Made by a program: the position numbers and the translations under genes. A stretch of DNA of 64,000 nt from a virus, in the IMG/VR virus record IMGVR_UViG_3300028394_000055, positions 28,632 to 92,631 of that record; one strand, given 5' to 3'. This document shows, piece after piece, positions 30,370 through 58,711 of this stretch. Below the pieces are notes generated by a model. The model made no database searches. It was given only the letters and a program-made list of their open reading frames with translations, and was not told the DNA's origin. The stretch's first letter is position 1, and every line of letters begins with the position of its first letter.

Positions 30370-30381
30370 AGTCAAGTGTGT

Positions 30382-33322: not shown

Positions 33323-33347
33323 AGTCACCTTTGTGTGAGATTGTTTT

Positions 33348-37711: not shown

Positions 37712-37736
37712 TATATACTATGATAATTAGTATATA
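37712..37736 (+). repeat. Hairpin overlapping a start codon
   Basis: TATATACTA (37712-37720) and its exact complement (37728-37736) flank the loop TGATAAT. The 3' arm ends on the A of ATG 37736. No Shine-Dalgarno is visible, so the hairpin could control translation or end the upstream message. Confidence 0.6.
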
Positions 37737-39232
37737 TGATAATAGCCCTTGCATGGAGTAAAAATCCCGATATAGACAAACTAATGACGTTTGAAGATGA
37801 TCCCTTTGGGGAATTTGAACCCGAGCCATGGGACAGCCGTTATCAATTAGTTTGGTATATTGATCCTAGATTTAATCCATTACCTGATAAAGTTTGGGCT
37901 GTCAGTTGCAAACCCATTGGCAGACCTATTGAAGGTGTTAAAGATATGGGTTATCTTGTTCCAAAAGTTAATATTGAATACAACAATGAACTACCGGACC
38001 TGGGTGTTGACTTTGATAAATGTTGTCCTGCCTTTTGGGAACTTGAAAATGAAATAGCATGGGAACTTGACCCTGCATGTACATTGGATGAAAGAATATG
38101 GGTAGTAAGAATGTCGCCTGCCTATAGAAAACCCAAAAACTGGGTATGGTATGGTACAATAACTCCTGAATATCATGTAGAGTATAATCCCAAATTACCT
38201 GTAATGGATTATGATGTAGATTATGTTATACCATATCACGATTTTACATTTGAACACGTATGGATGCTTGATCGTAAACACTTACAACATGATGAAGATG
38301 ACATATGGGCATTTAAAATTTGTGTAACACCCGACATAGAAGGTAGTAAAAACATAGACTATATAAGTCCTATACATACTGTAGAATATAATCCAGAGTT
38401 GCCTAAATTCAATTTAGATATTGATTATGTTATACCATGGTATGATTTATCATATAGCCATGTATGGAATGTTGCTGGGGAGGAGAAGATATGGGCCATA
38501 GCATTGTCAACCACTAATCCTTCTGTAGGTATTAAAGAAATGCCCAATATAATTCCTGCATTATCTGACAACTTGGATGTAATTTTTATAAGTTATTATG
38601 AACTTAATGCAGAAAAAAATTGGCAACGAGTATTAAAAAAAGCACCTTGGGCTAAACGTATAAATGGAGTTAAAGGTATATTCGAAGCGCATAAAGCAGC
38701 AGCCAAAATATCGTCAACTGATATGTTTTACATAGTAGATGGAGATGCATATCTAGTAGATGATTGGGAATTTAATTTTCAACCTGGCGTATTTGATCGA
38801 AACTGTGCTTACGTATGGAGTAGTCGAAATCCTGTTAATAGTTTGACTTATGCTCACGGTGGTGTTAAACTGTTTAATAAGAATATTCTTATGAGTAAAA
38901 AGAAGTGGACAACTCTCGATATGTTCACTGGTATAATGCCAAAAATAAAAGTAGAAGAAAAAATTAGTTGTTTTACAAATTTCAACGTGGATGAGTTTTC
39001 GACATGGCGAAGTGCATTTAGAGAATGTACTAAACTCTATAAAAATAATCAAATGAGTAAAATCAACGAATGGTTAAGATCAAATACTAAGAAAAAATTT
39101 GGTAGTTATGCAGTGTTAGGTGCGGTCAATGCCTGCCAATATGCTAAAGAATTTTTAAATGATAATGATGCATTGTTGATGATCAATGACTACGATTGGT
39201 TGAAAGAATATTTTAATAAAATGAAAGCGTGA
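37736..39232 (+). CDS. Repeat protein fused to glycosyltransferase-like domain
   Basis: 498 residues. The first ~280 residues are four imperfect repeats of 60-70 aa, each with a core like VEYNPELPKFNLDIDYVIPW and a conserved HVW/KIWA segment. The last ~220 residues resemble a glycosyltransferase: DVIFISYYELNAEKNWQRVL and a DxD-type MFYIVDGDAYLVDDW. The repeats may bind the acceptor or virion. Opens the decoration island. Confidence 0.8.
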   Translation: MIIALAWSKNPDIDKLMTFEDDPFGEFEPEPWDSRYQLVWYIDPRFNPLPDKVWAVSCKPIGRPIEGVKDMGYLVPKVNIEYNNELPDLGVDFDKCCPAFWELENEIAWELDPACTLDERIWVVRMSPAYRKPKNWVWYGTITPEYHVEYNPKLPVMDYDVDYVIPYHDFTFEHVWMLDRKHLQHDEDDIWAFKICVTPDIEGSKNIDYISPIHTVEYNPELPKFNLDIDYVIPWYDLSYSHVWNVAGEEKIWAIALSTTNPSVGIKEMPNIIPALSDNLDVIFISYYELNAEKNWQRVLKKAPWAKRINGVKGIFEAHKAAAKISSTDMFYIVDGDAYLVDDWEFNFQPGVFDRNCAYVWSSRNPVNSLTYAHGGVKLFNKNILMSKKKWTTLDMFTGIMPKIKVEEKISCFTNFNVDEFSTWRSAFRECTKLYKNNQMSKINEWLRSNTKKKFGSYAVLGAVNACQYAKEFLNDNDALLMINDYDWLKEYFNKMKA

Positions 39233-39236
39233 TAAA

Positions 39237-40619
39237 ATGTCAGAGCCACAAAATGTTAGGATTAAAAAAATAATTCCTATTATAAATGCAATAAGCCCTA
39301 CCTTTTGTTTGGCTAAATGGCACCACGTAACTTTATATCTACAAACCGGAGAGACACATAGTTGTTATCATCCTACTCCACATAAAATTGATTTAGATGA
39401 ACTTGAAAACAATCCAAGTGCATTACACAATACATCTCATAAAAAATTAGAGCGTAAAGAAATGTTAGAAGGTATAGAAACTAAAGGATGTCAATATTGT
39501 TGGAATATTGAGGATATGGGAACTGATTACATAAGTGATAGACATATACGTAATGCCAGCATTTTTACAGAAGAAAGATTTAAGAATGTAGTGGATGGTC
39601 CATGGAATCAAAATGTAAATCCAGAATATGTTGAGATTAGTTTTGGCAATGAGTGCAATTTTAAATGTGGATATTGTCATCCTAAAGCCAGCAGCAGATT
39701 TTATAATGAAATAAAAGAATACGGTCCTGTTACTAAAGTAAAAAATCATCGATGTGATATTGATTGGATGGATTTGTATGAAAGAGAAGAATTTAATCCT
39801 TATGTAGATGCTTGGTGGGAATGGTGGCCTGAAATGCGTAAAACGTTAAACATTTTACGTATTACAGGAGGTGAACCTCTCATGCATAAAAGCACATGGA
39901 GACTATTAGATAGTTTAAAAGTAGACCCTATGCCTGCTCTCGAATTAAACATTAACAGTAATCTAGGAGTTAAATCTAAATTAGTTGATAAGATGATTAC
40001 TAATATTAACACACTTATTGACAACAATGGTATAAAACAATTTAAATTGTTTACCAGCATCGACACTTGGGGACCTAGAGCAGAATATATTCGAACAGGG
40101 TTGGATTTAACATTATGGGAAAGTAATTTAGATAGATATTTAAAATCTACTGGAAACCCTATTAGTTTCATGATTACTTTTAATATATTGTCAGTTACAA
40201 CTTTTAAAGAGTTGCTATCTAAAATTTTAGAATGGCGATCTATATATAATCAATACAATAAGACTAGTCAATTTCAAATGATTACATTTGACACACCATA
40301 TTTGAAAGAACCATTGCAGTATGACATGAACATTTTACCTAAAGAAGAATTTATGCCTTATATGTTAGATTCTTTAAAATTTATGGAAGAGAATACAGAT
40401 AGTTCAAATGTTAATAAATTTTCTCAAGTTGAATTTGAAAAATTTAGAAGAGTAGTTGACTATATGCAAACTACTGATTACGGACAAGATAAAATAAATG
40501 AAGGTCGCAAAGATTTCTATCATTGGTTTATAGAGATTGATAAAAGAAGGGGAACTGACTTCCTATTAACATTTCCTGAGATGGGAGATTTTTTAAAAGA
40601 TATAAAAAATGATATTTAA
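39237..40619 (+). CDS. Radical SAM enzyme, twitch/SPASM-like
   Basis: 460 residues. The [4Fe-4S] motif is Cys140-x3-Cys144-x2-Cys147 (CNFKCGYC), and the SAM motif GGEP is at 211-214. Additional cysteines Cys43, Cys85 and Cys88 lie N-terminal and might hold an auxiliary cluster. Reaction unknown; such phage enzymes sit with sugar-modification genes. Needs Fe-S clusters, which the phage's own Isc-type genes could help supply. Confidence 0.88.
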   Translation: MSEPQNVRIKKIIPIINAISPTFCLAKWHHVTLYLQTGETHSCYHPTPHKIDLDELENNPSALHNTSHKKLERKEMLEGIETKGCQYCWNIEDMGTDYISDRHIRNASIFTEERFKNVVDGPWNQNVNPEYVEISFGNECNFKCGYCHPKASSRFYNEIKEYGPVTKVKNHRCDIDWMDLYEREEFNPYVDAWWEWWPEMRKTLNILRITGGEPLMHKSTWRLLDSLKVDPMPALELNINSNLGVKSKLVDKMITNINTLIDNNGIKQFKLFTSIDTWGPRAEYIRTGLDLTLWESNLDRYLKSTGNPISFMITFNILSVTTFKELLSKILEWRSIYNQYNKTSQFQMITFDTPYLKEPLQYDMNILPKEEFMPYMLDSLKFMEENTDSSNVNKFSQVEFEKFRRVVDYMQTTDYGQDKINEGRKDFYHWFIEIDKRRGTDFLLTFPEMGDFLKDIKNDI

Positions 40620-41802
40620 TGAAAATTGGTATCATAAACTTTTTAGTCAAGGACATCAGCAACCTTCTAAATCAATAATGCAAGAATATTCTTTTGAAGT
40701 AAGTATACTGTCAAAATCGTTAGAAAATAATAAGAATTATTGGTATGTAGAGTTTCATGGACCCAATGAATTAGAACTATTACCTACGATAGTCCCTGGA
40801 TCTATATTAAACTTGCTGAGAAGTAAAAAACTTAATTTGTTACTAGGAAATTCAAATGAGTCCTTCCATTCTATAATAGAACAAATTTATAAAATAGCAA
40901 TAGACCATTTAAAAATACCAGAAGAATGTATTACACTGGTCTCCGGATCTGCAGATATATTATCAGAAATTAAAAATGTGTCTACATCATATAATAGACA
41001 AGAGATTAAAGCAATTTGGTCTTCAATATTTGAGGCTCGATTAAGAGAATATATAGATTATAGACCTAATTTAAATATCAAACTACAAAATAAAAATTAT
41101 AATAAAAAATTTTTAAATTTTAATCGTCGATGGAGATTACATAGGCCGTTATTTGTTGCTTTGATGTTTTCTAAGAATTTGTTAGATTTAGGTTATATTA
41201 GTTTGGCTAATAGTGATGACAATAAAAACTGGAACAACGTTTGGGAAGAGTTAATAAAATTTAATTCATTGCCATATAACAAAACATGCCCAAACATAAC
41301 ACATTTATTAGAAACAAATAAAGATAAAATATTAGAACTCCCAGAAATGTATTTAGATACAGATGAATTAGTAGATAATAAATTTCTTCCTGATACTTCT
41401 TCTGATGTGTATTACACTAATAGTTATTTTAGTATAATAAGTGAAACTAATTTTTATACTTCATTTGATCATTATGAAAAAGGGCGATTCCTTACTGAAA
41501 AGATATTTAAATCTGTTTATTACAAGCATCCTTTTATATTAATATCTACACCAGGTAGCCTTAATTTTTTTAAATCTTTAGGTTATAAAACGTTTGGAGA
41601 ATTTATTAACGAAGATTATGACAATGAGTGTGATGATTACAAAAGAATAATAATGATATTACATGAAGTTGAAAGATTATCAAAATTAAACAATGATCAA
41701 CTTAAAGAATTCATAGAATATGCTCAATCTATATGCGAGTATAACTATCAACATCTTGCTAACAAGAATTACAAAAATAATTTTATTAAATTATTGAATT
41801 AA
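40609..41802 (+). CDS. Putative glycosyltransferase, SEK family member 1
   Basis: 397 residues. Shared family signature: NFNRRWRLHRPLFVALMFSK in the middle, and FLTEKIFKSVYYKHPFILIS...LGYKTFGEFINEDYD near the C terminus. The latter recalls fucosyltransferase-type (GT10-like) donor sites. Overlaps the radical SAM gene by 11 nt. Enzyme class is inferred. Confidence 0.75.
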   Translation: MIFNENWYHKLFSQGHQQPSKSIMQEYSFEVSILSKSLENNKNYWYVEFHGPNELELLPTIVPGSILNLLRSKKLNLLLGNSNESFHSIIEQIYKIAIDHLKIPEECITLVSGSADILSEIKNVSTSYNRQEIKAIWSSIFEARLREYIDYRPNLNIKLQNKNYNKKFLNFNRRWRLHRPLFVALMFSKNLLDLGYISLANSDDNKNWNNVWEELIKFNSLPYNKTCPNITHLLETNKDKILELPEMYLDTDELVDNKFLPDTSSDVYYTNSYFSIISETNFYTSFDHYEKGRFLTEKIFKSVYYKHPFILISTPGSLNFFKSLGYKTFGEFINEDYDNECDDYKRIIMILHEVERLSKLNNDQLKEFIEYAQSICEYNYQHLANKNYKNNFIKLLN

Positions 41803-42963
41803 TTTTTTTATTTTTAATATTATTTCTAATATTTGAACAATCAAGTATTCGTCATTAAACACTCTATTTCGATTATAACTCAGTAGTTCAGAGTTTTTAT
41901 ATCTCCATTCTATCTGTTGATCCCTAGTTAGCGATTTTAAGTAACTTACTACATCAGACGCACTTACTAACAATTTTTGATATCTTAAAATGTCATCTGG
42001 TTCATCATCGAAACTTAAATCAAAATATGATTCGTAAGTTTTAAATCCTATTAATGGTAATCGTTTGTTAATTCCTTTTTGTCCCCATATTATCATTGGC
42101 TGAAAATTAAACATAGGTTTTAATATTTTTTCAGAATAAAACAAAGAAGTTTCATTTTGATTTACGCACAGTGTTTCGTTTACAATACTAAATGCCGTTG
42201 AAAAGTGTAGATCTGATAAATGACCAGTTGGATTATTAATATGAAATGTATCACCATCTGCAAAGAATGGTAGTTTTTTTTTAAAATTATTAAAATCGTC
42301 AATTGTAACGTTCAATCTTTCTAATAAAAACGGAGAAGGTTGAAAATCATCAAGTTTATCTTGACTTACAATACATTCATCAAATATATCTGATCTGCTT
42401 AACATAAAGTGTCCCCAAACTCGATGTTCTCGATTTCTTCTAGACAAACTAAGCACTAATTTTTTAAATTTTTTATAACATAAATTTTTTGAAGTTACTA
42501 TATCTTCTGCATCAAATATATGCATCTCGTTAATATTTTGAAACATCATACTTAACAAAAATATAGGAGTTACGTTAATATCTGTTTTAAATTTAACTGT
42601 TTCTAGGTTTCCTGTTAACAAAAATATTTTTTTTGGATTTATATTGTATATTCTACAACTACTTTCAAATGACTTTGATAATATTTCTATCTCTTCACTA
42701 TATCCTTCAAATGTTCTATCAAAAAACATTACAGTATTTTTATCATTTGCTAGTCTGTCAATAGTATCTTTATCAAAATATTGAAATAGATCAATCTCGG
42801 GCGTTAAGTTTTGTCCATAACCTATTAATATGTTGAAGTATGATACATTTTCCAACTCTTCTAAAAGCAACGTGGGAAATCTACTGTTTAAATATCTAGT
42901 AAATGTTGTACCGGTTTCTCGAATATAATCATTTTCGATTACTTTAGCAAATATATGTTCCAT
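41791..42963 (-). CDS. Putative glycosyltransferase, SEK family member 2
   Basis: 390 residues from ATG 42963; the frame extends to ATG 42987, but that lies upstream of the late-type box GATAAATA (42975-42968). Family motifs: LSLSRRNREHRVWGHFMLSR and FYSEKILKPMFNFQPMIIWG, then IGFKTYESYFDLSFDDE. The only minus-strand gene of the island; tail-to-tail overlap of 12 nt with member 1. Confidence 0.75.
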   Translation of the reverse strand: MEHIFAKVIENDYIRETGTTFTRYLNSRFPTLLLEELENVSYFNILIGYGQNLTPEIDLFQYFDKDTIDRLANDKNTVMFFDRTFEGYSEEIEILSKSFESSCRIYNINPKKIFLLTGNLETVKFKTDINVTPIFLLSMMFQNINEMHIFDAEDIVTSKNLCYKKFKKLVLSLSRRNREHRVWGHFMLSRSDIFDECIVSQDKLDDFQPSPFLLERLNVTIDDFNNFKKKLPFFADGDTFHINNPTGHLSDLHFSTAFSIVNETLCVNQNETSLFYSEKILKPMFNFQPMIIWGQKGINKRLPLIGFKTYESYFDLSFDDEPDDILRYQKLLVSASDVVSYLKSLTRDQQIEWRYKNSELLSYNRNRVFNDEYLIVQILEIILKIKKLIQ

Positions 42964-42967
42964 GAGG

Positions 42968-42984
42968 TATTTATCGAATAAATA
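42968..42984. promoter_or_regulatory. Divergent pair of late-type boxes
   Basis: GTATTTATCGAATAAATAC is a near palindrome giving AATAAATA on + (42977-42984, 8 nt before ATG 42993) and GATAAATA on minus (42975-42968, 4 nt before ATG 42963). Confidence 0.55.
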
Positions 42985-42992
42985 CATACATA

Positions 42993-44333
42993 ATGAATTT
43001 TATTAACTACAAGTTTGAAACTTTTAATTGTACTCCAACTGATCGAATATCTGAAGCCTTGTTTGGGAGACGTCTAGCAAATTTCTTAAAATACAATGTT
43101 ATAAAAAACTCAGGTGGTAACCCTACATATAGATCTTCCCATTTGGTTGAAAGTTTTTTCTTTTATGACGAGAATAATACTACGGATTTAGATAGGGGAG
43201 CAGCCTTTCCTGTAGAATCTGACGTACCGTTAAACTATATTATTTCGTTAGGGGTAGCAGATGCACCTAATGATTGGGCAGGTAAAAGAATAAAATGGCC
43301 GCCATCTGTTTTTAAATTACTTAATCCTACATATCTACAAGATCTACAAAACAAAAAGGCTTTATTCTTAATAGATCAATCATTGGAAGGCTATCACAAA
43401 ACTTGGTTGTGGGAATGGTTCCATGAGGAATGTAGCAAATATCAAATTGATCCATCTGCAATTATTTACGCAACTGGAAATCAAGCAGCATCAGATGATT
43501 ACAACACGTGGCATGAAATAAATGCTGGCAATTCAAAAAAACTTAAAATTATTCCTTCCATAGCACTGTCAATGCCTGTTTATAAACATTATCAAATATA
43601 TAATTTTGATATTAAATTTACAGAATTATTATCTCATAAAAAAGAAAACATTCAAAACATTTCACTATACGATTGTATTAATTTTAAGTTTAGAACACAA
43701 CGTATTATAAATTTTTTACATTTAATAAATGAAAATTTAATAGATGATGGCAAAATAAGCATAGGATCTCTATTAGAAGTTTTTCATAAACGTCATTTAT
43801 CTGTAACAGAATATAATTTGCCATCTGATATAATTTTTAAAATACCTGATAAAGAAAATTGGATAGCAGGAGACCCTAACACTCAAAAGTTCGGCGATCT
43901 CATCGCTAGAATATTAAAAGATGTTTATGCAAATACATGGGTATCTTTAGTAACAGAGTCATCATTTTTTAAAGAAGAAAATACAGTTTTTATTAGCGAA
44001 AAAACTTTTAAACCTATTGCATGTATGCAACCATTTATTATATTAGGTAGTAAAGGTACACTGAAATATTTAAGAAAACTTGGATATAAGACATTTGATG
44101 GATTTATCGACGAATCATATGATGACTGTGAAGATGTAGATAGATTTGCTGCTATTATTAAATCATTAAAACAAATAAAAAATATTTCAGATAAAGTTGC
44201 ATGGTATGAATCTATGCAAGAGATATTAGAACATAATCACAAACTATTCTTATCAATAGGCACATCAAAATCTATCGAACATTTGGAAGTTATTAAATAC
44301 TATAACAACTATTTTAAGGAATCACATGTTTAA
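42993..44333 (+). CDS. Putative glycosyltransferase, SEK family member 3
   Basis: 446 residues, the longest member. C-terminal signature FISEKTFKPIACMQPFIILG, then LGYKTFDGFIDESYDD. The central RR/HR motif is weaker (FKFRTQRIINFLHLI). The N-terminal part differs from the others, suggesting a different acceptor. Followed at an 8-nt overlap by an SGNH hydrolase. Confidence 0.75.
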   Translation: MNFINYKFETFNCTPTDRISEALFGRRLANFLKYNVIKNSGGNPTYRSSHLVESFFFYDENNTTDLDRGAAFPVESDVPLNYIISLGVADAPNDWAGKRIKWPPSVFKLLNPTYLQDLQNKKALFLIDQSLEGYHKTWLWEWFHEECSKYQIDPSAIIYATGNQAASDDYNTWHEINAGNSKKLKIIPSIALSMPVYKHYQIYNFDIKFTELLSHKKENIQNISLYDCINFKFRTQRIINFLHLINENLIDDGKISIGSLLEVFHKRHLSVTEYNLPSDIIFKIPDKENWIAGDPNTQKFGDLIARILKDVYANTWVSLVTESSFFKEENTVFISEKTFKPIACMQPFIILGSKGTLKYLRKLGYKTFDGFIDESYDDCEDVDRFAAIIKSLKQIKNISDKVAWYESMQEILEHNHKLFLSIGTSKSIEHLEVIKYYNNYFKESHV

Positions 44334-45210
44334 TGATCTTGCAGACACTATCAATACAGGCGATAATGTTATTATTGCCTTAGGAGATAGTTTTACCCAA
44401 GGAGTAGGGGCTTACAGTTTACAATCTTGGGAAGATTCACTTAGAATTGGAAAAGGAAATGAGTTCAATCTCTCAGCAACTTATTTTCGAAAAGAACAAC
44501 ATAACAATAATTGGGCAGCACAACTAAGAAACAAATATTTTCCTGATTACAAAGTTTGGAATTTAGGAATTAATGGTACAGGCAATCGGGGAACAATAAA
44601 AGAATTATATTTAAATCCTTTACCAAAAAAATTAGGAAATGTTATAGTAATATTAATGGCAACAGGACTTGAAAGGTTTGATTTTCTTAAAAAAAGTAAA
44701 GAAACTGGTGGGCTTTATAATCATCAAAAATGGCAAACAATATGGCCTGTTGAAAGTAATCGAGGTGAAATCTCTGTCATAGAAACAGCATATCAAAATT
44801 TGTTGTATTCAAAAAGAATAATAGCCACCGAATTTTTAATGAATGTTGCTGAGGCTCAACATGTATGTAAAGCACGAGATTATAAATTTTTGTTTGGATC
44901 TGCATTCGATGATCGTGTGAATAAAGAAATATTAACCAGATTGTTAGATGATGATCACGCTTATATAGATATAGTTAACTGGAATGACTTTGTAAAACCA
45001 GAAGATGATCCTGCCTTTATGGAAATGTTGATAAGATTAGAAGGCGATCCTAGATTTAATGATTTTTTTGAATTTCAAAATAAAAAAATAATAGACACTA
45101 TGAAAATGCCATTAAGATACATAACACCATGTATGCATTGGACTATTGAAGGTCAATCGGTAGTTGCTGATGTTTTATATAAAGAAATAAAAAAAAGAAG
45201 AATAGCATGA
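44326..45210 (+). CDS. SGNH/GDSL-type hydrolase 1
   Basis: 294 residues. Block I VIIALGDSFTQGVGAYSL holds the nucleophile Ser; block III-like GINGTGNRG; the C-terminal CMHWTIEGQSVVAD probably gives the catalytic His. SGNH enzymes act as esterases or, on glycans, as O-acetyl or other acyl hydrolases/transferases. Overlaps genes on both sides. Confidence 0.8.
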   Translation: MFNDLADTINTGDNVIIALGDSFTQGVGAYSLQSWEDSLRIGKGNEFNLSATYFRKEQHNNNWAAQLRNKYFPDYKVWNLGINGTGNRGTIKELYLNPLPKKLGNVIVILMATGLERFDFLKKSKETGGLYNHQKWQTIWPVESNRGEISVIETAYQNLLYSKRIIATEFLMNVAEAQHVCKARDYKFLFGSAFDDRVNKEILTRLLDDDHAYIDIVNWNDFVKPEDDPAFMEMLIRLEGDPRFNDFFEFQNKKIIDTMKMPLRYITPCMHWTIEGQSVVADVLYKEIKKRRIA

Positions 45211-46208
45211 AAATATTTGTTACTGGAATTGCAGGATTCTTAGGAAGTCATCTAGCAGAAAGAATGCTTTCACTAGGCCATACTGTTAGTGGAAATGATT
45301 CGTTAGTTGGGGGCTATTTGCATAATATCCCTAAAGATGCAGAATTTTTTAAAATTGATTGCTGTGATATGCAATCAATGATTAAAGCAATGAAAAGCAG
45401 TGACATTGTAATTCATACCGCTGCCACTGCTCATGAAGGTTTAAGTATATTCAGCCCTGCATTCATCACTCGTAATATATATGAAGCAAGTATATCTACA
45501 ATTTCAGCCGCTATTCAATCTAATGTAAAACGATTTGTATTTTGTAGCAGTATGGCTAGATATGGTAATCAACAAGGGCCATTCACAGAAGACATGCAGC
45601 CAACAGGTATTGATCCATACGGCATTGCCAAAGTTGCTGTTGAGAATACATTAAAAGTATTATGTTCTACACATGGAATGGAATGGAATGTAGCAGTTCC
45701 GCATAATATTGTTGGTCCACGGCAAAGATATGATGATCCATTTAGAAATGTAATAAGCATTATGATTAATCGTAATTTACAAGGCAAACCTGCTATTGTT
45801 TATGGTGATGGCTTGCAAACTCGTTGTTTTTCTTATATAGATGATTGTATTCAATGTTTAGAAAAAATAGCACTTGATCCCAATATAAAATTTGAAACGA
45901 TTAATATTGGTCCAGATGAAGGCGAAATTACTATTAAAGAAATGGCAGAACTAGTTGCAGAAGAATGCAATATGACATTACCTTTAATATATATGCCTGA
46001 TAGACCCTGTGAAGTAAAACATGCAACTTGTTCTTCAAATAAAGCAAGACAGTTGCTTAATTATAAAACAAATACAGATTTAAAAACTGCAATTAAATAT
46101 ACTGTAGAATATATAAAAAAACACGGGATCAAAGAGTTTGATTATAATTTTCCATTAGAGATAATAAACAACCAAACACCTAAAACATGGAGTGAAAGAT
46201 TAATATGA
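45207..46208 (+). CDS. NAD-dependent sugar epimerase/dehydratase
   Basis: 333 residues, extended SDR. Rossmann motif GIAGFLG (7-13); catalytic Ser in VFCSSMARYG and Tyr138-x3-Lys142 (YGIAK). Closest in style to UDP-glucose/GlcNAc 4-epimerases. Makes a nucleotide sugar for the island's transferases. Overlaps both neighbours by 4 nt. Confidence 0.88.
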   Translation: MKIFVTGIAGFLGSHLAERMLSLGHTVSGNDSLVGGYLHNIPKDAEFFKIDCCDMQSMIKAMKSSDIVIHTAATAHEGLSIFSPAFITRNIYEASISTISAAIQSNVKRFVFCSSMARYGNQQGPFTEDMQPTGIDPYGIAKVAVENTLKVLCSTHGMEWNVAVPHNIVGPRQRYDDPFRNVISIMINRNLQGKPAIVYGDGLQTRCFSYIDDCIQCLEKIALDPNIKFETINIGPDEGEITIKEMAELVAEECNMTLPLIYMPDRPCEVKHATCSSNKARQLLNYKTNTDLKTAIKYTVEYIKKHGIKEFDYNFPLEIINNQTPKTWSERLI

Positions 46209-46876
46209 GTAGCGATAAACCACATCTAGTTTTAAATTGGATCTTTGATGTTCCAAATTATAAACTTTTTATACAAATTGCAGATGATTTAGAATATGAG
46301 GCAGTCGAAGGTGGCTGTTTAGGATTTATCAAAACGTACAAGGGAGTAGTATCTCATGTATCTTTATTGGATTGGCAAGAAAAAGAGAAATTTTGGATAA
46401 GTGAACATTATGGACATATCTATGGTTATTTTCAACCAGCACATCGAGTAAAAAAACATCCTAAGTGGGGCTGGGATCAAGTTTGTGCAAATGGATTAGG
46501 GCCGGATGGAGAATATCTTGATCACATGCAACGTATGCAAATATTACTAGAAGGAAATGATATGGCATACGTATGGGGCGGCCAAAAGATTCCGTTGTTT
46601 TTGACTCCAGATAAGGGTTTAACTATATATAAACGTATTCCTACAAGAGATGTAAATTATCCTGAAGAAATGATGAAAGATCCTGAAGTTTTTTGGCCGG
46701 AATGGCCGCAGGCTTGTTTAATGCAACCTCGAACAAAAGGTCCTAGACTTAGCAGTTATGCAGAATTGAAAGAAAATGGAGCACCTTCGAATATAATTAA
46801 CAAATGTGCGGCAGGACTTTGGGATGCTCCACCATTTCCTGAATTACAAAAGTGGTACATATACCCAACTAAGTAA
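46205..46876 (+). CDS. Unknown protein of the decoration island
   Basis: 223 residues, Trp/Pro/Tyr-rich: VLNWIFDVPNYKLFIQIADD, EHYGHIYGYFQPAHRVKKHP, GLTIYKRIPTRDVNYPEEMM. No domain recognised. Translationally coupled to the epimerase (ATGA overlap), so probably part of the same pathway. Confidence 0.7.
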   Translation: MSSDKPHLVLNWIFDVPNYKLFIQIADDLEYEAVEGGCLGFIKTYKGVVSHVSLLDWQEKEKFWISEHYGHIYGYFQPAHRVKKHPKWGWDQVCANGLGPDGEYLDHMQRMQILLEGNDMAYVWGGQKIPLFLTPDKGLTIYKRIPTRDVNYPEEMMKDPEVFWPEWPQACLMQPRTKGPRLSSYAELKENGAPSNIINKCAAGLWDAPPFPELQKWYIYPTK

Positions 46877-46877
46877 T

Positions 46878-47690
46878 ATGTATATGAATAAAATAGATTT
46901 TAAAAAATATAAAAGATTCTTTGCATTTGGATGCAGTTTTACTGATTATCACTGGCCAACTTGGGCAAATATTATATCTCAAGAAATACCAAATTCAACT
47001 GTCTTTGGGAAATCTGGCGCAGGAAATTTCTTTATATATCAATCTTTGATTGAGGCAAATATAAGATATAAATTGAATAAAGACGATCTAATTATGGTTA
47101 TGTTTTCAAATGTAACAAGAGAAGATAGATTTATGCGTAGTCGCGGAACTTGGGTAACTCCTGGGAACCTATTTCATCAAAGCGAATATGATGAAAATTT
47201 TATGAAAAACTTATTTTGTCATCACGGATATTTAATGAGAGATTTAAATCTTGTCTATGGTTGTAAAAATATTTTAAATAGTATAGGTTGTGAATATGAA
47301 TTAATGTCTATTGTTCCATTTAATAGTTTAAAGAGTGATGGAGATATGATGGACGATATTGACTATCTTTTAAATTTTCACAAAGATACTATATCTCAAA
47401 TTAAACCTAGTGTACTTGAAGTATTATTTAATAATGATTGGAACACTAGATTGCCTAGACCCAAATATAAAGTTAATTGGACTGACGATCTTTTTGTAGA
47501 TAATCATCCTACCACATTAGAGCATTTTGAATATTTGCAATTGATATTTCCTGAAACAGAATTTTCACAACATACAATAGAGTACGTTAAAAAATATAAT
47601 CAATTAATTTTTGATAAAGATTTTAGTGACGACACATCAAAACACGATAAAAAATTAAGCAGTCGATTGGGCGTAACATATTATGAATAG
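46878..47690 (+). CDS. SGNH hydrolase-like protein 2
   Basis: 270 residues from ATG 46878. FFAFGCSFTDYHWPTWANII carries the block I Ser, VFGKSGAGNFF is block II/III, and DNHPTTLEHFEYL is block V with the Asp-His dyad. Likely acyl hydrolase or acyltransferase on a sugar. One base after the previous gene, 8-nt overlap with the next. Confidence 0.78.
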   Translation: MYMNKIDFKKYKRFFAFGCSFTDYHWPTWANIISQEIPNSTVFGKSGAGNFFIYQSLIEANIRYKLNKDDLIMVMFSNVTREDRFMRSRGTWVTPGNLFHQSEYDENFMKNLFCHHGYLMRDLNLVYGCKNILNSIGCEYELMSIVPFNSLKSDGDMMDDIDYLLNFHKDTISQIKPSVLEVLFNNDWNTRLPRPKYKVNWTDDLFVDNHPTTLEHFEYLQLIFPETEFSQHTIEYVKKYNQLIFDKDFSDDTSKHDKKLSSRLGVTYYE

Positions 47691-48948
47691 AATTTTACAA
47701 GTATTAGATATAGCATCTATTACATATGATGAAAAAATATATAATGGAACAGCAGTAAATGATAAAAACGAACCATTCTGGGTAGAATTTGCAAGGCCGC
47801 ATTTTAATGAAATAGGAGTAGATTTAAAATTACTAACTTTAAATGAAATTGACAAAAGCAAAAACTGGATTATAAATCTTGATATTAAAGCATGGGAATG
47901 GTATCCCTGTAACGAAGTATTTGAATCATTAGGTACAGAAATATTAAATGAAATAAAATATGGTAATGCTTATATAATACTTAATCACCAATGTGAATCA
48001 CAAACTAATCGATTTTTTATTAATCTTTATCAAAAGGCAGGGAAAGGATTCCCTTTCCCTTTTAATAAAATAATGTATATGGTAGGTGCTGCTGACGCAG
48101 AAAGAGAATATAGGATTTTTGTTAAAGAAAATGATATTCCTAAAGAAAATCAAATTAGGATTTTATATACTCACCATGTATACAAGCGTTTTCACTCTGA
48201 TGTACAGAGGTATGAGATAGATTATTTCAATAATAAAAACAAAACTCTTAAAAAAGAGAAAAAGTTTTTATCTTTGAATCGTAGAGGACATGATCATAGG
48301 ATACTATTAGTATCTTCACTTGTATCTGCTAATTTAATGGAGCATGGTTATGTAAGTTTAGGACTGTATCCAGATGATTTACCTTTAGCAGATCATCAAA
48401 TATTTTATCTAACTAAAGACGAAATTAATATGGGATATATTAAAGAAAGTTTTGATACCATTAGAGACCAAGTACCGTTAAGAGTTGATTCGTCTAATTT
48501 AAAAGTTAACTTATTTGGAACAACTTCTTTGCCAATGGATTTCTATCAACAGAGTTGTTTTAGTTTAGTATCGAGTACATGTGGAATACAACGTCAGGAA
48601 AAATCTGTGGGATTTACCGAAAAAGAAGTTAAGCCTATACTTGCTCGTCACCCTTTTATCATATATAATTTATCAGGTGCGCTGGAACATCTTAAAAGTA
48701 TGGGATTTTTAACTTTTGAACGCTGGTTTGACGAAAGTTATGATTTAGAAACTAATGACAGAAGACGTTTGGAAAAAATAATAAAAGAGGTAGCAAGATT
48801 GAGTGCAATATCATTTGAAGATTGGGAAATAATGTTAGAAGAGATGAAACCAGTGCTTGATCATAATCACAATCGTATGGTAAAATATACCACAGAGCAT
48901 TGTTATTTTAATAGTGATCTAAAAAAATTATTATATTATGTCTCTTAA
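47683..48948 (+). CDS. Putative glycosyltransferase, SEK family member 4
   Basis: 421 residues. FLSLNRRGHDHRILLVSSLV in the centre and FTEKEVKPILARHPFIIYNL, then MGFLTFERWFDESYD. The family motifs are best conserved here. Preceded and followed by overlapping genes. Confidence 0.75.
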   Translation: MNRILQVLDIASITYDEKIYNGTAVNDKNEPFWVEFARPHFNEIGVDLKLLTLNEIDKSKNWIINLDIKAWEWYPCNEVFESLGTEILNEIKYGNAYIILNHQCESQTNRFFINLYQKAGKGFPFPFNKIMYMVGAADAEREYRIFVKENDIPKENQIRILYTHHVYKRFHSDVQRYEIDYFNNKNKTLKKEKKFLSLNRRGHDHRILLVSSLVSANLMEHGYVSLGLYPDDLPLADHQIFYLTKDEINMGYIKESFDTIRDQVPLRVDSSNLKVNLFGTTSLPMDFYQQSCFSLVSSTCGIQRQEKSVGFTEKEVKPILARHPFIIYNLSGALEHLKSMGFLTFERWFDESYDLETNDRRRLEKIIKEVARLSAISFEDWEIMLEEMKPVLDHNHNRMVKYTTEHCYFNSDLKKLLYYVS

Positions 48949-50863
48949 ATTGATTAGTCTTATACAACCAAATTTTCAGCAAGGACCGAAAGAGTTTAAT
49001 GCTCACTATCTGCCCTATAGCGTGGGCGTATTATGGAGTTATGTTCAAACGTTTCCTAAAGTAAACAAAAATTTTAAATTAGACAAATTAATATGGCTGC
49101 GGAGTGATCTTGAAAAAACATTAGATTCATTAAAGAACAGCGAAATATTTGCGTTCAGTACATACATATGGAATAAAAATTACAATTATACACTAGCCAA
49201 GCGGTTAAAAGAAAATAATCCTAATTGTTTTATTATATTTGGCGGTCCAGAACTTCCTATAACTAAACGTGATATGTTTAAACGTTATCCTTTTATTGAT
49301 GTTGTAGTAAAAGGAGAAGGAGAAATTACCTTCAAAAATCTACTAGAACATCTAGCAGATGGAACTCCATTTGAAAATGTTACAGGTCTTGTCATTAACA
49401 AAAATGGCAAAGCATATGATACGGGTAATTCTGAAAGAATAAACGCATTAGAAGATATTCCTAGTCCTTACTTAACAGGAGTATTTGATAACTTAATAGC
49501 AGATACTACAGGTGTAGAATGGAATGCTACATTAGAAACAAATAGGGGATGTCCATATGCTTGTACATTTTGTGATTGGGGAAGCCTTACATATAATAAA
49601 GTTAAGAAGTTTGACATGCAACGTGTCTTTGATGAATTAGAATGGATAGGTAAAAACAAATGCGGATTTGTTAGTATAACCGATGCTAACTTTGGCATGT
49701 TTATTGATAGGGATAATGCCATTGCAGATAAGTTATTAGAAGTGCAGGCAAAATACGGTTACCCATATACATTTAGTGTAGCCTGGGCAAAAAATCAAAA
49801 AGCAGAAGTATTTGATATTGTATTCAAATTAATTAAAAGTCCTAAATTCAATCAAGGTCTAACCGTTAGTGTTCAAAGTATGGATCTAGATGTATTAGAA
49901 AACATTAAACGTAAAAACTTAGATCAACATAAAATTTCAGATATATTTAAATTATGTGACAAACATAATGTGCCAGTCTATACCGAAGTTATACTAGGGT
50001 TGCCTGGCGAAACCAAAAACAGTTGGCAACAAAACTTTTGGAAGTTGTTTGATGCGGGCAATCACACAGGTGTAACCATATTACAAGCACAGATGTTAGA
50101 AAATGCAGAAATGAATTTACTTCAAAGAAAACTCTACGGAATAAAAAGTGTGCCTGTGTACGATTATATGAGCGGTAGTTATAATTATGATGAACTACAA
50201 GAATCAGTAGAAGTAGTCATTGCTACAAAAGATTTGCCTTTTGAAGATATGCTGGATAGTCACATGTTTTCTTGGTACATCAATACATTTCATATAAATG
50301 GACTCACAACATATATAAGTAGATTTTTAAATAAACAAAAAGGTATAAGTTATGAAGAGTTTTATGATAAATTGTATGATTATTTAAAATTAGATCTTTG
50401 GTTTATTAAAGAACGTGATGAAGTAAGAATGTATTACAAAAATTGGATGACAGATGGTCGCATCAACCATCCTAATATTAGTAACATCGAAGTACACGGT
50501 TGGAATATTGTACATCGTGCAACATTAAACTTGCATGCCGATAGAAAATATGATACAGTATTTAGAATAGTTGAAAAATTTGTAAAAGAATCATTTAACT
50601 TAGATTTAGAATTAGCAGATCAGTTAATTAAATTTCAAAAGTTTTTTGTTATTGACTATGATAAGATTGATCATTACCCGATGGATTTATCTTTTGACTA
50701 TGATTTTTTGGGGTATGTACAAGAAGACACAGAATTAGTTATTCCCACTACGTATGCATTTGAATTTTTTGAAGATAAAAATATAACAATTGAACGATTT
50801 TTAGAAAACATTTATTTTAGTAGACGAAGGAATTTTGGTAAAGCATGTATAACAAAAAAGTAA
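48938..50863 (+). CDS. B12-binding-type radical SAM enzyme
   Basis: 641 residues. The N-terminal segment LKENNPNCFIIFGGPELPIT to VVVKGEGEITFKNLLEHLAD follows the cobalamin-binding-type fold. The radical SAM motif Cys205-x3-Cys209-x2-Cys212 (CPYACTFC) comes next, then EVILGLPGET. The usual B12-ligand DxHxxG motif is not evident, so cobalamin use is uncertain. Such enzymes often methylate unactivated carbons. C-terminal ~200 residues unrecognised. Confidence 0.88.
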   Translation: MSLKLISLIQPNFQQGPKEFNAHYLPYSVGVLWSYVQTFPKVNKNFKLDKLIWLRSDLEKTLDSLKNSEIFAFSTYIWNKNYNYTLAKRLKENNPNCFIIFGGPELPITKRDMFKRYPFIDVVVKGEGEITFKNLLEHLADGTPFENVTGLVINKNGKAYDTGNSERINALEDIPSPYLTGVFDNLIADTTGVEWNATLETNRGCPYACTFCDWGSLTYNKVKKFDMQRVFDELEWIGKNKCGFVSITDANFGMFIDRDNAIADKLLEVQAKYGYPYTFSVAWAKNQKAEVFDIVFKLIKSPKFNQGLTVSVQSMDLDVLENIKRKNLDQHKISDIFKLCDKHNVPVYTEVILGLPGETKNSWQQNFWKLFDAGNHTGVTILQAQMLENAEMNLLQRKLYGIKSVPVYDYMSGSYNYDELQESVEVVIATKDLPFEDMLDSHMFSWYINTFHINGLTTYISRFLNKQKGISYEEFYDKLYDYLKLDLWFIKERDEVRMYYKNWMTDGRINHPNISNIEVHGWNIVHRATLNLHADRKYDTVFRIVEKFVKESFNLDLELADQLIKFQKFFVIDYDKIDHYPMDLSFDYDFLGYVQEDTELVIPTTYAFEFFEDKNITIERFLENIYFSRRRNFGKACITKK

Positions 50864-51825
50864 TTAATTATCACATTTGGTCTGAAAGTATATTTGATAA
50901 TATATTAAAAGATATAAAAACACATAAGCCTGATGTTATCAACATATGGGCTGCAGAAGAACATGAAGTTTTTTTGGCTTGGTCAGATAATAACAGCGAG
51001 CCATATAAAAGTATTTTTATAGAAAATAATATAGAAGTAAATTATCTATTTGGAACTTTTGAAATAGATTGGTATCTTAATCGATATCATTTTCCTGAAC
51101 ATAATATTAATGTTCATTTATGGCCAACTTATTATCTATCATTTACTTATCAGTCAATGCTGTCTAATAACTTGGTGTTAACCCCTCCTAATTCTAATTT
51201 TTCTTATCCTATTATATCGTTAAACAATCGTCCTCATAGACATAGATGCCATATGATGGATATGTTAGCAAAATATGATTTAATTGAGGGTAATGCTATA
51301 TCATGGCATAACGATTTAGACACATGCCCGCATGAATGGAAATATTGGAATCCACATAAAATGATCTTATCAGATGAATTTGTTACTAAACCTTCATCAT
51401 ATCCGCCGCCATCTCAGTGGAATGAATCTTTTTTGCATGTTATATCAGAATGCAGTATTCGAAATTTGTATGTTTCAGAAAAAACATGGATGGCTATACT
51501 GGGTAGAAAATTATTCATTGCTCAATCAAAGCATGGATTCCATAAAGGATTAAAAAATTTAGGATTTCAATTATATGATGAGTTGTTTGACTATAGTTTT
51601 GATAGTATTATCGATGATAACGATAGATGTGAAGCAGTAATACAACAAGCAAAAAATTTAATATCAAAAGGCAATTTTAATAAAGTATATAGTGATTTGC
51701 AAGATAAAATTAATTATAATGCAAAACATGCACTTGAACTAGCAACAACTAATAAAGTACCTGATATTGTAAAAAAATACGATTTTCATCATTATGATTT
51801 TGTGGAAAGGATAACAAAAATATGA
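50845..51825 (+). CDS. Putative glycosyltransferase, SEK family member 5
   Basis: 326 residues. SLNNRPHRHRCHMMDMLAKY and YVSEKTWMAILGRKLFIAQS, then LGFQLYDELFDYSFD, align with the family though more diverged and shorter at the N terminus. Overlaps the radical SAM gene by 19 nt. Confidence 0.72.
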   Translation: MYNKKVINYHIWSESIFDNILKDIKTHKPDVINIWAAEEHEVFLAWSDNNSEPYKSIFIENNIEVNYLFGTFEIDWYLNRYHFPEHNINVHLWPTYYLSFTYQSMLSNNLVLTPPNSNFSYPIISLNNRPHRHRCHMMDMLAKYDLIEGNAISWHNDLDTCPHEWKYWNPHKMILSDEFVTKPSSYPPPSQWNESFLHVISECSIRNLYVSEKTWMAILGRKLFIAQSKHGFHKGLKNLGFQLYDELFDYSFDSIIDDNDRCEAVIQQAKNLISKGNFNKVYSDLQDKINYNAKHALELATTNKVPDIVKKYDFHHYDFVERITKI

Positions 51826-53123
51826 AAACAAAAGTTTCAATGATAGGACTAGGCAAATTAGGATTGCCTTGTGCTGAAGTAATGGCAGAACACTACGAGG
51901 TATCGGGATATGATATTTCTTTAGTAGACCCTACATTTCTTGTATCAGTTAAAAAATCAATAGAAGATGCAGTGTTAGGCCGTGATATTATTTTTGTAGC
52001 AGTACCAACTCCTCACGATCCACAGTATAGCGGCAGCACTCCTATTGCAGATATGTCACCTATGGATTTTGATTATAGTATTGTTCAAAATGTATTAACT
52101 GAAATTAATCAATATGTTAATAAAAATCAACTAGTGGTATTAATTAGTACAGTTCTTCCAGGCACAGTAAGATCACACTTACGTCCGTGTATTACTAATG
52201 CACGTTTCATTTATAATCCTTATCTTATTGCAATGGGTAGTGTAAAATGGGATATGGTCAATCCTGAATGTTTAATCATAGGAACAGACGATGGATCAAA
52301 GACAGGTGATGCAAAATTATTAATTGATTTTTATGCCCCCCTAATGAAAAATTCTCCTACAATCAATATTGGAACATGGGATGAAGCAGAAGCAATTAAA
52401 ATTTTCTACAACACTTTTATCAGTGCTAAAATTGGTTTAGTTAATATGATACAAGATGTGGCTGAAAAGAATGGTAATATTAATGTAGATGTTGTTACAG
52501 ATGCATTAAAGGCTGCTACTCAACGTATTACCGGTCCTAGATATTTAACAGCAGGAATGGGTGATGCAGGTGCTTGCCATCCTAGAGATAATATTGCATT
52601 AAGATATTTGGCTGAACGATTAGATTTGGGCTATGATTTATTTCATGCAATTATGCACAGTAGGGATCAACAAGCCAAAAATATGGCAAAAAGATTAGTA
52701 GGATTAGCAAAGGAGCATAACCTTCCAATTGTTATTCATGGGAGAGCATATAAACCTTATGTAGAATACACTATAGGTAGTTATAGCGAATTAGTAGGAC
52801 ATTTTATTCAATCAGAAGGTATGGAAGTGTCTTATGCAGATCCGCTAACACACGATGTATGGAAAAGCGGTGCTGCTGTTATATTAATGGCACATAATCC
52901 TGCTATAACATACTTAGGTACAGGTGTTAATATTAAACCAAATCAATTTTATTTTAATATAGAAGTAGGTAGTGTTATATTAGATCCTTGGAGGACTATA
53001 AGTGACATGACAGGGATAACTGTTATTCATTATGGTAATACACGACCCAAAAATAACATTAATTCTAAACTAAAAGAAAAATTAAAAGAACTTAGTAATC
53101 GTGATCCATTTATATACAAATGA
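51822..53123 (+). CDS. UDP-glucose/ManNAc 6-dehydrogenase family
   Basis: 433 residues. NAD-binding GLGKLGLP (9-16), substrate/hinge region VLPGTVRSHL, and the catalytic Cys252 in the GMGDAGACHPRD loop, equivalent to the classical GGSCFPKD. Oxidises the C6 alcohol of a nucleotide sugar to a uronic acid. Which nucleotide sugar is used cannot be told. Confidence 0.87.
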   Translation: MKTKVSMIGLGKLGLPCAEVMAEHYEVSGYDISLVDPTFLVSVKKSIEDAVLGRDIIFVAVPTPHDPQYSGSTPIADMSPMDFDYSIVQNVLTEINQYVNKNQLVVLISTVLPGTVRSHLRPCITNARFIYNPYLIAMGSVKWDMVNPECLIIGTDDGSKTGDAKLLIDFYAPLMKNSPTINIGTWDEAEAIKIFYNTFISAKIGLVNMIQDVAEKNGNINVDVVTDALKAATQRITGPRYLTAGMGDAGACHPRDNIALRYLAERLDLGYDLFHAIMHSRDQQAKNMAKRLVGLAKEHNLPIVIHGRAYKPYVEYTIGSYSELVGHFIQSEGMEVSYADPLTHDVWKSGAAVILMAHNPAITYLGTGVNIKPNQFYFNIEVGSVILDPWRTISDMTGITVIHYGNTRPKNNINSKLKEKLKELSNRDPFIYK

Positions 53124-54592
53124 TTGTTTGGGGAATTAGTGCTAACAGTCACGATGCCGCAGTTAGTGTGTGGCACGATAAAGATCTACGGTTCGCTGCT
53201 CATAGTGAAAGATACAGTGGTATAAAGAACGACGGTGATCTATGTCCTGGAATAATTGAAGAAGCCGGTCAACATGGACAACCTGATCTTATAGTATGGT
53301 ATGAAGATCCTCTATTAAAAACTGCAAGACAACTTAAAGCGGGACAAGGGAATAAAGAACAAGAGAATAATATAAAAGATTATCTTGCCAAATACAATAT
53401 TACTCAAAAAATACATTTTGGAAAACATCATCACAGCCATGCCGCCGCCGGCTATTATACCAGTGGATTTACTGATGCAGCAGTTGTAGTTATTGATAGC
53501 ATAGGCGAGTTTGAAACTCTTACGTTATGGCACGGTCAGGGCAATGACCTAAAGAAAATATACACACAAGAATATCCTAACAGTGTTGGCCTCTGGTTTA
53601 GTGCTATGACACAGCGTTGTGGTTTAAAACCCAATGAGGAAGAATATATATTAATGGGTATGGCTGCTTATGGAGATTCAAATAGACTTAAAGCAGATAT
53701 ATACAAAGATTTCTTTAAAACAATAAACGGTCCTTCAATCTCATTCAAACAAAATCTACATAAAGGATGCTTAGAATGGAGAATAGATTTAATTAAAGAA
53801 CAAGACACATTTGATATAGCAGCAGCAACTCAACAGATATATACAGAATTGTTACAAGGCATCAGTACCTGGGCACGTAGAAATATACCTAGTAGCAATC
53901 TCATACTTATGGGGGGGTGTGCTCTTAATTGTGTGGCTAATAGTACTATAACAGGTGACTGGGATAATATATGGATAATGCCTAATCCTGGTGATGCAGG
54001 TAGTGCAGTTGGCGCAGTAGCAGGTTACTTTGGTGAACATATCAATTGGCCTGGCGCATATCTTGGTACAGATATAGGTACAATATATCCAGTGGAAGAA
54101 ACTATTGATATTCTAAAAAAGAATAAGATTGTAGGTGTTGCAAGCGGACGTGCAGAATATGGGCCTAGAGCATTAGGACATCGTAGTTTACTTGCTGATC
54201 CGAGAGGTTCAACAATTAAAGATATAGTTAATGCTATTAAACGTAGACAGCAGTTTAGGCCATTTGCACCTGCTATATTAGAAGAACACGTACATGAATA
54301 TTTTGAGATGCCTAAGGGCATTACCGCCAGTCCTTATATGCAATTTGTTGCCCGTTGCACTAAACCTGATGAGTTCCCTGCTATTATACACAAGGATGGA
54401 ACTAGCAGAGTACAAACTGTAAGTAAAACGGATAGTCCCGGATTTAGAAAGTTGTTAGAGAATTGGTATCAAGAAACGGGATGTCCTATGTTGCTCAACA
54501 CTAGTTTAAACATAAAAGGTAAACCTATGGTTAACACCAGTGATGATGCTAATCAATTCTATCTTCAATATAATGTTCCGGTAGTCACCTAA
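53120..54592 (+). CDS. O-carbamoyltransferase (NodU/CmcH/TobZ family)
   Basis: 490 residues. The metal/ATP site HHHSHAAAGYYTSGF (103-117), GGCALNCVANS, GRAEYGPRALGHRSLLADPR and FRPFAPAILEE are all present: the Kae1-like plus C-terminal domains of the family. It adds a carbamoyl group from carbamoyl phosphate and ATP to a hydroxyl of a sugar or small molecule. Overlaps the dehydrogenase by 4 nt. Confidence 0.92.
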   Translation: MIVWGISANSHDAAVSVWHDKDLRFAAHSERYSGIKNDGDLCPGIIEEAGQHGQPDLIVWYEDPLLKTARQLKAGQGNKEQENNIKDYLAKYNITQKIHFGKHHHSHAAAGYYTSGFTDAAVVVIDSIGEFETLTLWHGQGNDLKKIYTQEYPNSVGLWFSAMTQRCGLKPNEEEYILMGMAAYGDSNRLKADIYKDFFKTINGPSISFKQNLHKGCLEWRIDLIKEQDTFDIAAATQQIYTELLQGISTWARRNIPSSNLILMGGCALNCVANSTITGDWDNIWIMPNPGDAGSAVGAVAGYFGEHINWPGAYLGTDIGTIYPVEETIDILKKNKIVGVASGRAEYGPRALGHRSLLADPRGSTIKDIVNAIKRRQQFRPFAPAILEEHVHEYFEMPKGITASPYMQFVARCTKPDEFPAIIHKDGTSRVQTVSKTDSPGFRKLLENWYQETGCPMLLNTSLNIKGKPMVNTSDDANQFYLQYNVPVVT

Positions 54593-55143
54593 TGAAAATA
54601 GATAAAGATGCATTTAGCAGTGGGCAGATTGGTAGCAAGATTTGGCTTTGTGAACAGTTAGAATTATTATTTGATAAAGTAGATTCTATATGGATTTATG
54701 GTGGCTGGTATGGTATAACTGCATTTTTACTGCAATCTAGAGGTAATATCAATATATCAAACATACGTAGTTACGATATAAATCCTTCATTCGAAGAAGT
54801 TGCTGATATAATCAATGAAAATTGGGTATATCAAAATTGGAAATTTAAAGCATATACCGAGGATTGTTCTGCACTTATTCCTAAAAAAAATACACCAGAC
54901 TTAATAATTAATACAAGTACTGAACATTTCAAAACAATGGATTGGTGGAACAATATACCCAAAGGTACATACATTGCAATACAAGGCAATGATATGCCAC
55001 ATACTGATCATGTTGTTTATTCAACATCGTTAGATGACTTCTGCCACGCTTATCCATTAGATGATCTATTGTATAAAGGCGAATTGAAATTTTCTTATCC
55101 CGACTGGAGTTTTACCAGATTTATGCAAATTGGCATAAAATAG
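54592..55143 (+). CDS. SAM-dependent methyltransferase-like protein
   Basis: 183 residues. A degenerate motif I (IWIYGGWYGITAFLL), the acidic SYDINPS strand, and NTSTEHF fit a class I methyltransferase. A phage family of this type is common. Shares one base with the carbamoyltransferase. Probably the last enzyme of the island. Confidence 0.72.
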   Translation: MKIDKDAFSSGQIGSKIWLCEQLELLFDKVDSIWIYGGWYGITAFLLQSRGNINISNIRSYDINPSFEEVADIINENWVYQNWKFKAYTEDCSALIPKKNTPDLIINTSTEHFKTMDWWNNIPKGTYIAIQGNDMPHTDHVVYSTSLDDFCHAYPLDDLLYKGELKFSYPDWSFTRFMQIGIK

Positions 55144-58686: not shown

Positions 58687-58711
58687 AATAGTTATAGTCC
58701 TATATTTTATT

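Follow-up and report, generated by a model that had tools for sequence, protein, structure and literature searches.

The stretch of DNA analysed here (64,000 nucleotides, hereafter the window) corresponds to positions 28632-92631 of a linear virus record of 92,631 bases in IMG/VR and harbours, at positions 37736-55143, an island of putative glycan-modifying enzymes located directly behind genes for virion fibres. In a preliminary description made from the sequence alone this island had been read as a glycan decoration locus whose likely acceptors are the virion fibres. All genes named therein are indeed present at this place, within 16 tightly packed open reading frames (ORFs). The distances between them range from +5 to -19 nt, apart from one nominal overlap of 71 nt which disappears if the second SGNH gene starts at an ATG near position 46884. 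That these frames represent genes rather than chance follows from their length of hundreds of codons on DNA of 31% GC and from the recurrence of the gene order in other phages, whose proteins are 47-73% identical. The GC content of the island amounts to 31.1% compared to 36-37% on most flanks, and its third-position GC to 0.205 compared to 0.294 in core genes, which is in line with a cassette of separate origin. No protein of the island looks membrane-spanning, and named phages yielded no match in a search for near-identical copies of the island. In the following, L numbers denote loci and G numbers virus records, the record of the window being G000.

All genes of the island described below lie on the plus strand, with the exception of one glycosyltransferase-like gene (GTa2r) whose orientation the preliminary description had passed over. 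Two radical SAM enzymes, an epimerase and an O-carbamoyltransferase are each backed by profile matches. The first radical SAM protein, rSAM1 (39237-40619), scores 314 bits against the N-terminal-twitch family N_Twi_rSAM (NF033640), well above the curated cut-off of 170 and over positions 1-397 of 398. It contains the CX3CX2C motif (Cys140, Cys144, Cys147) as well as the N-terminal auxiliary-cluster cysteines 24, 43, 85 and 88. In the second, rSAM_B12 (48938-50863), both the Radical_SAM and the B12-binding Pfam domains exceed their cut-offs, and homologues of 67-69% identity are found in L015, L018 and L019. It is probably a C-methyltransferase. The claimed C-methylation is thus compatible with the architecture of this protein, while its score against the KedN5 profile (NF033712; 7e-78, 262 bits) lies far under the cut-off of 700 and does not place it in that family. 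The carbamoyltransferase (53120-54592; TobZ/NovN/GdmN type) exceeds the cut-offs for both Carbam_trans domains (PF16861 and PF02543; 126 and 184 bits versus 24 and 27) and matches NovN among proteins of solved structure with 8e-55. At the level of the enzyme, carbamoylation is accordingly well supported. The epimerase (Epim, 45207-46208), a sugar-nucleotide epimerase of the short-chain dehydrogenase/reductase type, matches PF01370 with 1.6e-43 and resembles UDP-glucose 4-epimerases among the solved structures.

Less secure than initially described are three further assignments. SGNH1 (44326-45210), a GDSL/SGNH-like esterase or acyltransferase kept in related loci, matches Lipase_GDSL with 1e-4, just under the cut-off. 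SGNH2 (46806-47690, its true start probably lying near 46884) has no Pfam match and is assigned from a GCSFT motif seen by inspection, similar proteins being present in the repeat-GT loci described below. Since an SGNH protein may be either an esterase or an O-acetyltransferase, the proposed acylation is but weakly indicated. The methyltransferase-like protein MT (54592-55143) finds no match in Pfam, PHROGs or NCBIfam. It belongs to a conserved neighbour family which occurs in 25 of 80 repeat-GT loci. Finally, the 223-residue protein encoded at 46205-46876 has neither a family match in profile searches nor a homologue in the repeat-GT loci. We would like to note that a third SGNH-like protein, recognised by inspection, is encoded just beyond the island (56389-57330).

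The five glycosyltransferase-like paralogues, GTa1 (40609-41802), GTa2r (41791-42987, minus strand, inverted likewise in L015, L018 and L019), GTa3 (42993-44333), GTa4 (47683-48948) and GTa5 (50845-51825), form, as had been suggested, one homologous family in whose alignment Glu336-Lys337 is invariant. The model of GTa3 (pTM 0.85) exhibits a GT-B fold composed of two Rossmann-like domains, which the family as a whole is predicted to share. Its best Foldseek matches in the PDB all belong to a single GT-B enzyme family, the trehalose-phosphate synthases (E 2e-4 to 9e-4, probability 0.99-1.00), but the TM-scores reach only 0.3-0.4. Weak structural matches further comprise the fucosyltransferase (FucT) of H. 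pylori (rank 19, E 0.013) and GT10-like proteins of giant viruses (E 6.5e-4 to 1.3e-3). The GT-B fold is also that of GT10 fucosyltransferases, and the conserved Glu-Lys and Arg motif of the GTa proteins may resemble that of GT10. In sequence the GTa proteins match no solved structure: searches of the PDB with the GTa and repeat-GT profiles yielded no match or only chance-level ones, and Pfam gave no match for the GTa proteins. Among viral models, about 22 uncharacterised proteins match GTa3, nearly all from uncultured Caudovirales. One match of 788 amino acids is annotated as UDP-glucose/GDP-mannose dehydrogenase and is possibly a fusion of a GTa-type enzyme with a dehydrogenase.

The first gene of the island, RepGT (37736-39232), encodes the repeat-GT protein, which was described as a fusion of N-terminal repeats with a glycosyltransferase. 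The gene is present and a DxD motif (Asp68/Asp70) is invariant in the alignment of its homologues. Profile searches return no family match, and the model shows weak matches to sugar nucleotidyltransferases and GT-A enzymes, which is only suggestive of a GT-A or nucleotidyltransferase fold of the C-terminal domain. Apparent single-ORF fusions of repeat-GT with a twitch radical SAM protein are found in L036 and L116. Bacterial homologues occur in Photorhabdus (L118, L119, L120), Micromonospora (L123) and Salinispora (L129), where genes read from their sequence as glycosyltransferase-like adjoin. These bacterial loci may represent natural-product glycosylation clusters.

The nucleotide-sugar dehydrogenase (51822-53123) is confirmed by Pfam as a member of its family and is related to UDP-glucose dehydrogenase (UGDH). 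Comparison of the protein with its phage homologues from L003, L005, L026 and L027 reveals that the catalytic Cys252, Lys193, Asn197 and Asp256 are invariant in all five. The segment NPEFLAEG of human UGDH is, however, changed to NPYLIAMG in each of them, so that Tyr and Met replace Glu161 and Glu165. In the human enzyme, Glu161 drives the hydrolysis of the thioester. As both catalytic glutamates are replaced, the formation of a uronic acid, which the preliminary description had proposed for the glycan, is doubtful, and we rejected the assignment of this protein as an ordinary uronic-acid enzyme. Judging from these replacements, the glutamate-free family possibly performs a new reaction.

Three virion-type genes on the same strand directly precede the island, which starts 39 nt after the last of them. 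The first, fib1 (33427-34224), encodes a small virion or fibre protein which, by alignment and clustering, belongs to a family designated FIBs; the last, fib2 (36230-37696), encodes a fibre-like protein with homologues at the same place in G016 (43% identity) and G001 (30%). Both proteins are candidate acceptors. Between them lies a gene for a fibre-like protein with a Hint (self-processing) domain in its C-terminal part (34226-36223; Hom_end_hint 7e-6, under the gathering score). This Hint domain is of the intein/hedgehog type and is followed by a further domain; the relative in G016 likewise has a Hint-like C-terminus, and self-processing of a virion fibre is conceivable. The Ser/Thr content of the fibre and small fibre proteins ranges from 0.20 to 0.24 versus 0.13 overall, which would suit O-glycosylation, though such richness is common in fibres.

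The record is a fragment of a jumbo myophage, since its large terminase, encoded upstream of the window, is 52% identical to those of the Pseudomonas jumbo phages PA5oct, MIJ3 and Paride, since its genes include a tail sheath besides terminase, T4-like helicase, primase, DnaB and ligase, and since a search with the DnaB gene retrieves records of 77-86% identity with sizes up to 221-355 kb. Comparison of gene content with sister phages, as the preliminary description had suggested, speaks for a joint inheritance of fibre genes and enzymes. G000, G001 and G016 carry islands of differing content between the fibre region and a conserved cell-wall hydrolase gene. The island of G001 contains two rSAM1, five GTa, rSAM_B12, UGDH and MT, and that of G016 two rSAM1, MT and carbamoyltransferase without any GTa, while repeat-GT and fib2 are common to all three islands and their fibre regions. 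In contrast, no match to repeat-GT, GTa, fib1 or fib2 was found in G014, the closest relative by its flanks (77-83%), or in the 354-kb record G020, and the island upstream of the hydrolase gene is missing from both as well. Among the sister records fib1 occurs only in those with an island. Hence, fib1, fib2 and island are together present in three records and together absent from two, and judged by gene content the fibres are gained and lost along with the enzymes.

A search with any one island enzyme recovers the others in other phages. In the loci found by means of GTa3 the core order repeat-GT, rSAM1, GTa3, SGNH1, Epim, GTa2r (inverted), rSAM_B12 recurs, joined by UGDH in L026 and L027. The proteins of this core are 47-73% identical across phages with the exception of repeat-GT (29-42%), and in G011 the core module is located after three tail-fibre genes. 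The repeat-GT profile matches at least 583 places in IMG/VR, of which the best 80 loci were read. Fibre genes lie upstream on the same strand in 37 of the 45 loci with enough upstream sequence, or in 24 of 30 after collapsing the repeat-GT proteins at 70% identity. N_Twi_rSAM is present in 62 of the 80 loci, with 206 proteins in total and up to ten per locus. The typical order is one or more fibre genes, FIBs, u116, two GT8-like genes, u198 and two repeat-GT genes, followed by a variable stretch of radical SAM, GTa, epimerase, SGNH, carbamoyl-, methyl- or hydroxylase genes. The names GT8-like, u116 and u198 were coined in this analysis; none of the three has a Pfam match. The conserved small proteins u116 (e.g. 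L096:6487-6837) and u198 (L076:5078-5668), encoded between fibre and glycosyltransferase genes, are candidates for a chaperone or specificity factor.

The reverse search started from the small fibre protein FIBs, with the best 80 of at least 496 matches fetched. All 63 loci with enough downstream sequence, which fall into 25 clusters at 60% identity, contain u116, GT8-like, u198 and repeat-GT within 6 kb downstream on the same strand, a proportion inflated by ascertainment because the loci underlying the FIBs alignment had themselves been retrieved with repeat-GT. Twitch radical SAM genes are present in 52 of these 63. Neither fibre nor GT8-like nor repeat-GT members occurred in 80 helicase-centred control loci of equal total length, in which three rSAM1 and a single GTa were counted. 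The unit of the window itself has no u116, GT8-like or u198 gene between fibre and repeat-GT. Many uncultured phages from fresh water and the sea contain the package of fibre and enzymes; in 50,697 isolate phage records, searched with rSAM1, GTa3, repeat-GT, u116 and the small fibre protein, nothing matched at E 1e-5. As a separate observation, the 303-kb virus G003 (L006, L022) shows 17 N_Twi_rSAM matches in one genome, next to which PP-loop-ATPase-like and pyridoxal-phosphate-enzyme-like genes are seen by inspection. One of its islands lies near a gene for a protein of at least 4062 residues, Ser/Thr-rich by inspection.

We consider the island to be an exchangeable modification cassette for virion fibres, with a probability of about 60%. 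The virion fibres as acceptors, already proposed in the preliminary description, are supported by the co-inheritance, by the near-obligate fibre linkage, which is what a pair of acceptor and enzymes would show, and by the lack of membrane export machinery. Glycosylation would take place during assembly in the host cytoplasm and without a lipid carrier, repeat-GT and the five GT-B enzymes adding sugars one by one directly onto fibre residues. The epimerase and the altered dehydrogenase would tailor the sugar donors. C-methylation would be due to the B12/radical SAM enzyme, O-carbamoylation to the carbamoyltransferase and the addition or trimming of acyl groups to the SGNH enzymes, while the twitch radical SAM enzyme may modify either the sugar or the fibre peptide. 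Exchange of genes in the variable half of the island would yield a different glycan, which probably alters adsorption or shields the fibre from enzymes at the host surface. We infer the acceptor, the order of the sugars and the benefit, and likewise that the products are sugars on the fibre. Several points weigh against this assignment. Besides the ascertainment behind the 63 FIBs loci, it counts that G014 is a fragment. The fold of repeat-GT is uncertain, as Foldseek returned no match with E below 0.001. Scans for sigma-70 and T4-late promoters gave no signal for late expression above chance, and the window has only 3 exact T4-late-type motifs where chance would give 10. Finally, adjacency to fibre genes could merely reflect a shared role in host recognition.

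This last point is equally predicted if the island remodels the lipopolysaccharide or capsule of the host during infection, thereby blocking superinfection or the adsorption of progeny to debris, the phage sugars entering the host's own lipid-linked export pathway. Conversion of the host surface is the main competitor of fibre modification and, in our view, unlikely without being far-fetched. O-antigen and capsule pathways, too, frequently include GDP-mannose 4,6-dehydratase (GMD), epimerase and O-carbamoyltransferase, and cytosolic glycosyltransferases of O-antigen pathways can likewise be devoid of membrane segments and use host export. Modification of the host surface is the published reading for pelagimyophages (PMC7029224) as well as for carbamoyltransferase-containing clusters of jumbo cyanophages (PMC7824862). 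Against it, none of the 1132 neighbour proteins from the 80 repeat-GT loci has four or more candidate transmembrane segments; since no protein of the island or among these neighbours looks polytopic, flippase, polymerase and initiating transferase are missing. Moreover, surface conversion would not call for the observed joint inheritance of fibre genes and enzymes.

Alternatively, the island could produce a diffusible glycoside or a modified peptide resembling ribosomally synthesised and post-translationally modified peptides, directed against competitors, with the fibre neighbourhood being incidental. We regard this as distinctly improbable. The twitch-type radical SAM, B12/radical SAM and TobZ/NovN-type carbamoyltransferase families characteristically occur in natural-product clusters, repeat-GT has the bacterial homologues beside glycosyltransferase-like genes mentioned above, and a secondary metabolite has been proposed for S-SSM6a (PMC7824862). 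Yet neither an exporter nor a conserved short gene for a precursor could be recognised, and the fibre linkage is far above that in the helicase-locus control. Sugar decoration of DNA bases against restriction, named as an alternative in the preliminary description and recalling the glycosylation of hydroxymethylcytosine in T4-like phages, the type to which the replication proteins of the phage belong, was rejected as highly improbable, as the enzymes travel with fibres instead of replication genes and as no hydroxymethylase-type gene of the thymidylate synthase family was found in G000, G001 and G010, which are fragments, G003 alone containing one.

The cassette belongs to a known kind, the variable host recognition cluster (HRC) beside the fibre genes of T4-like phages. 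Sugar clusters of jumbo phages, phages with multiple radical SAM genes and glycosylated chlorovirus virions are known as well. The HRC of pelagimyophages and cyanomyophages lies, in T4-like phages of SAR11, between VrlC and gp14 and has been read as modifying the host O-antigen (PMC7029224). Like the HRC, the present locus is an extensive, variable island next to tail-fibre genes; it encodes several glycosyltransferases, and radical SAM cassettes have been gained between related genomes. Unlike the HRC, it resides in a relative of PA5oct and Paride, and a near-obligate unit of fibre, u116, GT8-like, u198 and repeat-GT is seen across IMG/VR. The capsular polysaccharide modification or secondary-metabolite clusters of jumbo phages such as S-SSM6a (PMC7824862) share carbamoyltransferases, methylases, 2-oxoglutarate (2OG) oxygenases and paralogous glycosyltransferases with the loci studied here; in contrast, radical SAM enzymes are not mentioned there, hence no pair of twitch radical SAM and repeat-GT, and a different acceptor is proposed. 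The chlorovirus PBCV-1 glycosylates a virion protein apart from the host pathway by means of its own glycosyltransferases, methylation and GDP-mannose dehydratase (PMC4691112). In outline the proposed decoration of fibres would work alike, whereas virus realm and enzymes differ, the capsid is modified there and the fibre would be here, and the structure of the PBCV-1 glycan has been solved. The T4-like marine phage TARA_ERS488813_N000010 also combines many radical SAM genes, namely 12, in one genome; these are interpreted via Fe-S metabolism, and the passage on them draws no link to fibres (PMC5332604).

As judged from the available literature and collections, three features are new: the near-obligate unit of fibre, repeat-GT and GT8-like genes, the twitch radical SAM enzymes that are paired with it, and the lack of matches to it in isolate genomes at E 1e-5. 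No described function of phage twitch radical SAM enzymes was found in the literature, and modification of fibres proposes a substrate for them. Fibre genes set the host range, and their variation is usually viewed as variation in sequence. If the fibres are indeed modified, swaps of enzymes could alter host range and evasion while the fibre remains unchanged, and glycans would form a hidden part of the virion surface. More tentatively, and with doubt prevailing, we suggest that a widespread class of uncultured phages matures its receptor-binding fibres by twitch radical SAM enzymes and dedicated glycosyltransferases, that FIBs, u116, GT8-like, u198 and repeat-GT form an obligate unit, and that radical SAM genes, as many as ten at a locus, are swapped in sets, which generates chemical instead of sequence-based variation in host recognition. 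Within this proposal, the UGDH relative may hand a sugar thioester to another acceptor rather than release a uronic acid. Being compact, linked and recurrent, the unit makes the question testable.

Upstream of the fibre genes and divergent from them, a minus-strand operon (29770-33328) encodes a 2OG oxygenase, a protein without assignment, a DUF6165 protein, a GT9-like protein and GMD. The preliminary description had attached this operon to the island. GMD is solid (488 bits against TIGR01472, cut-off 415) and the oxygenase matches phrog_61, while the GT9-like label stems from inspection of the sequence. The tie to the island found no support and was rejected: G001 and G016 have no GMD orthologue, and a GT9-like gene is present in G020, which lacks the island. 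The operon may possibly supply a sugar.

Further upstream, a 14-kb stretch of the window (15800-29700) differs in GC content (47% versus 36% elsewhere), and ORFs of at least 100 amino acids cover only 44% of it. Alternative genetic codes tried on the region from 16 to 29 kb yielded no convincingly long frames, and scans for tRNAs and Rfam RNA families, which included this stretch, gave no match. A similar stretch is located near the same place in the sister records G001 (L020, 1-10000) and G020 (L238). Beyond the island, a palindromic TATAAATA pair is located at positions 58708-58719 of the window.

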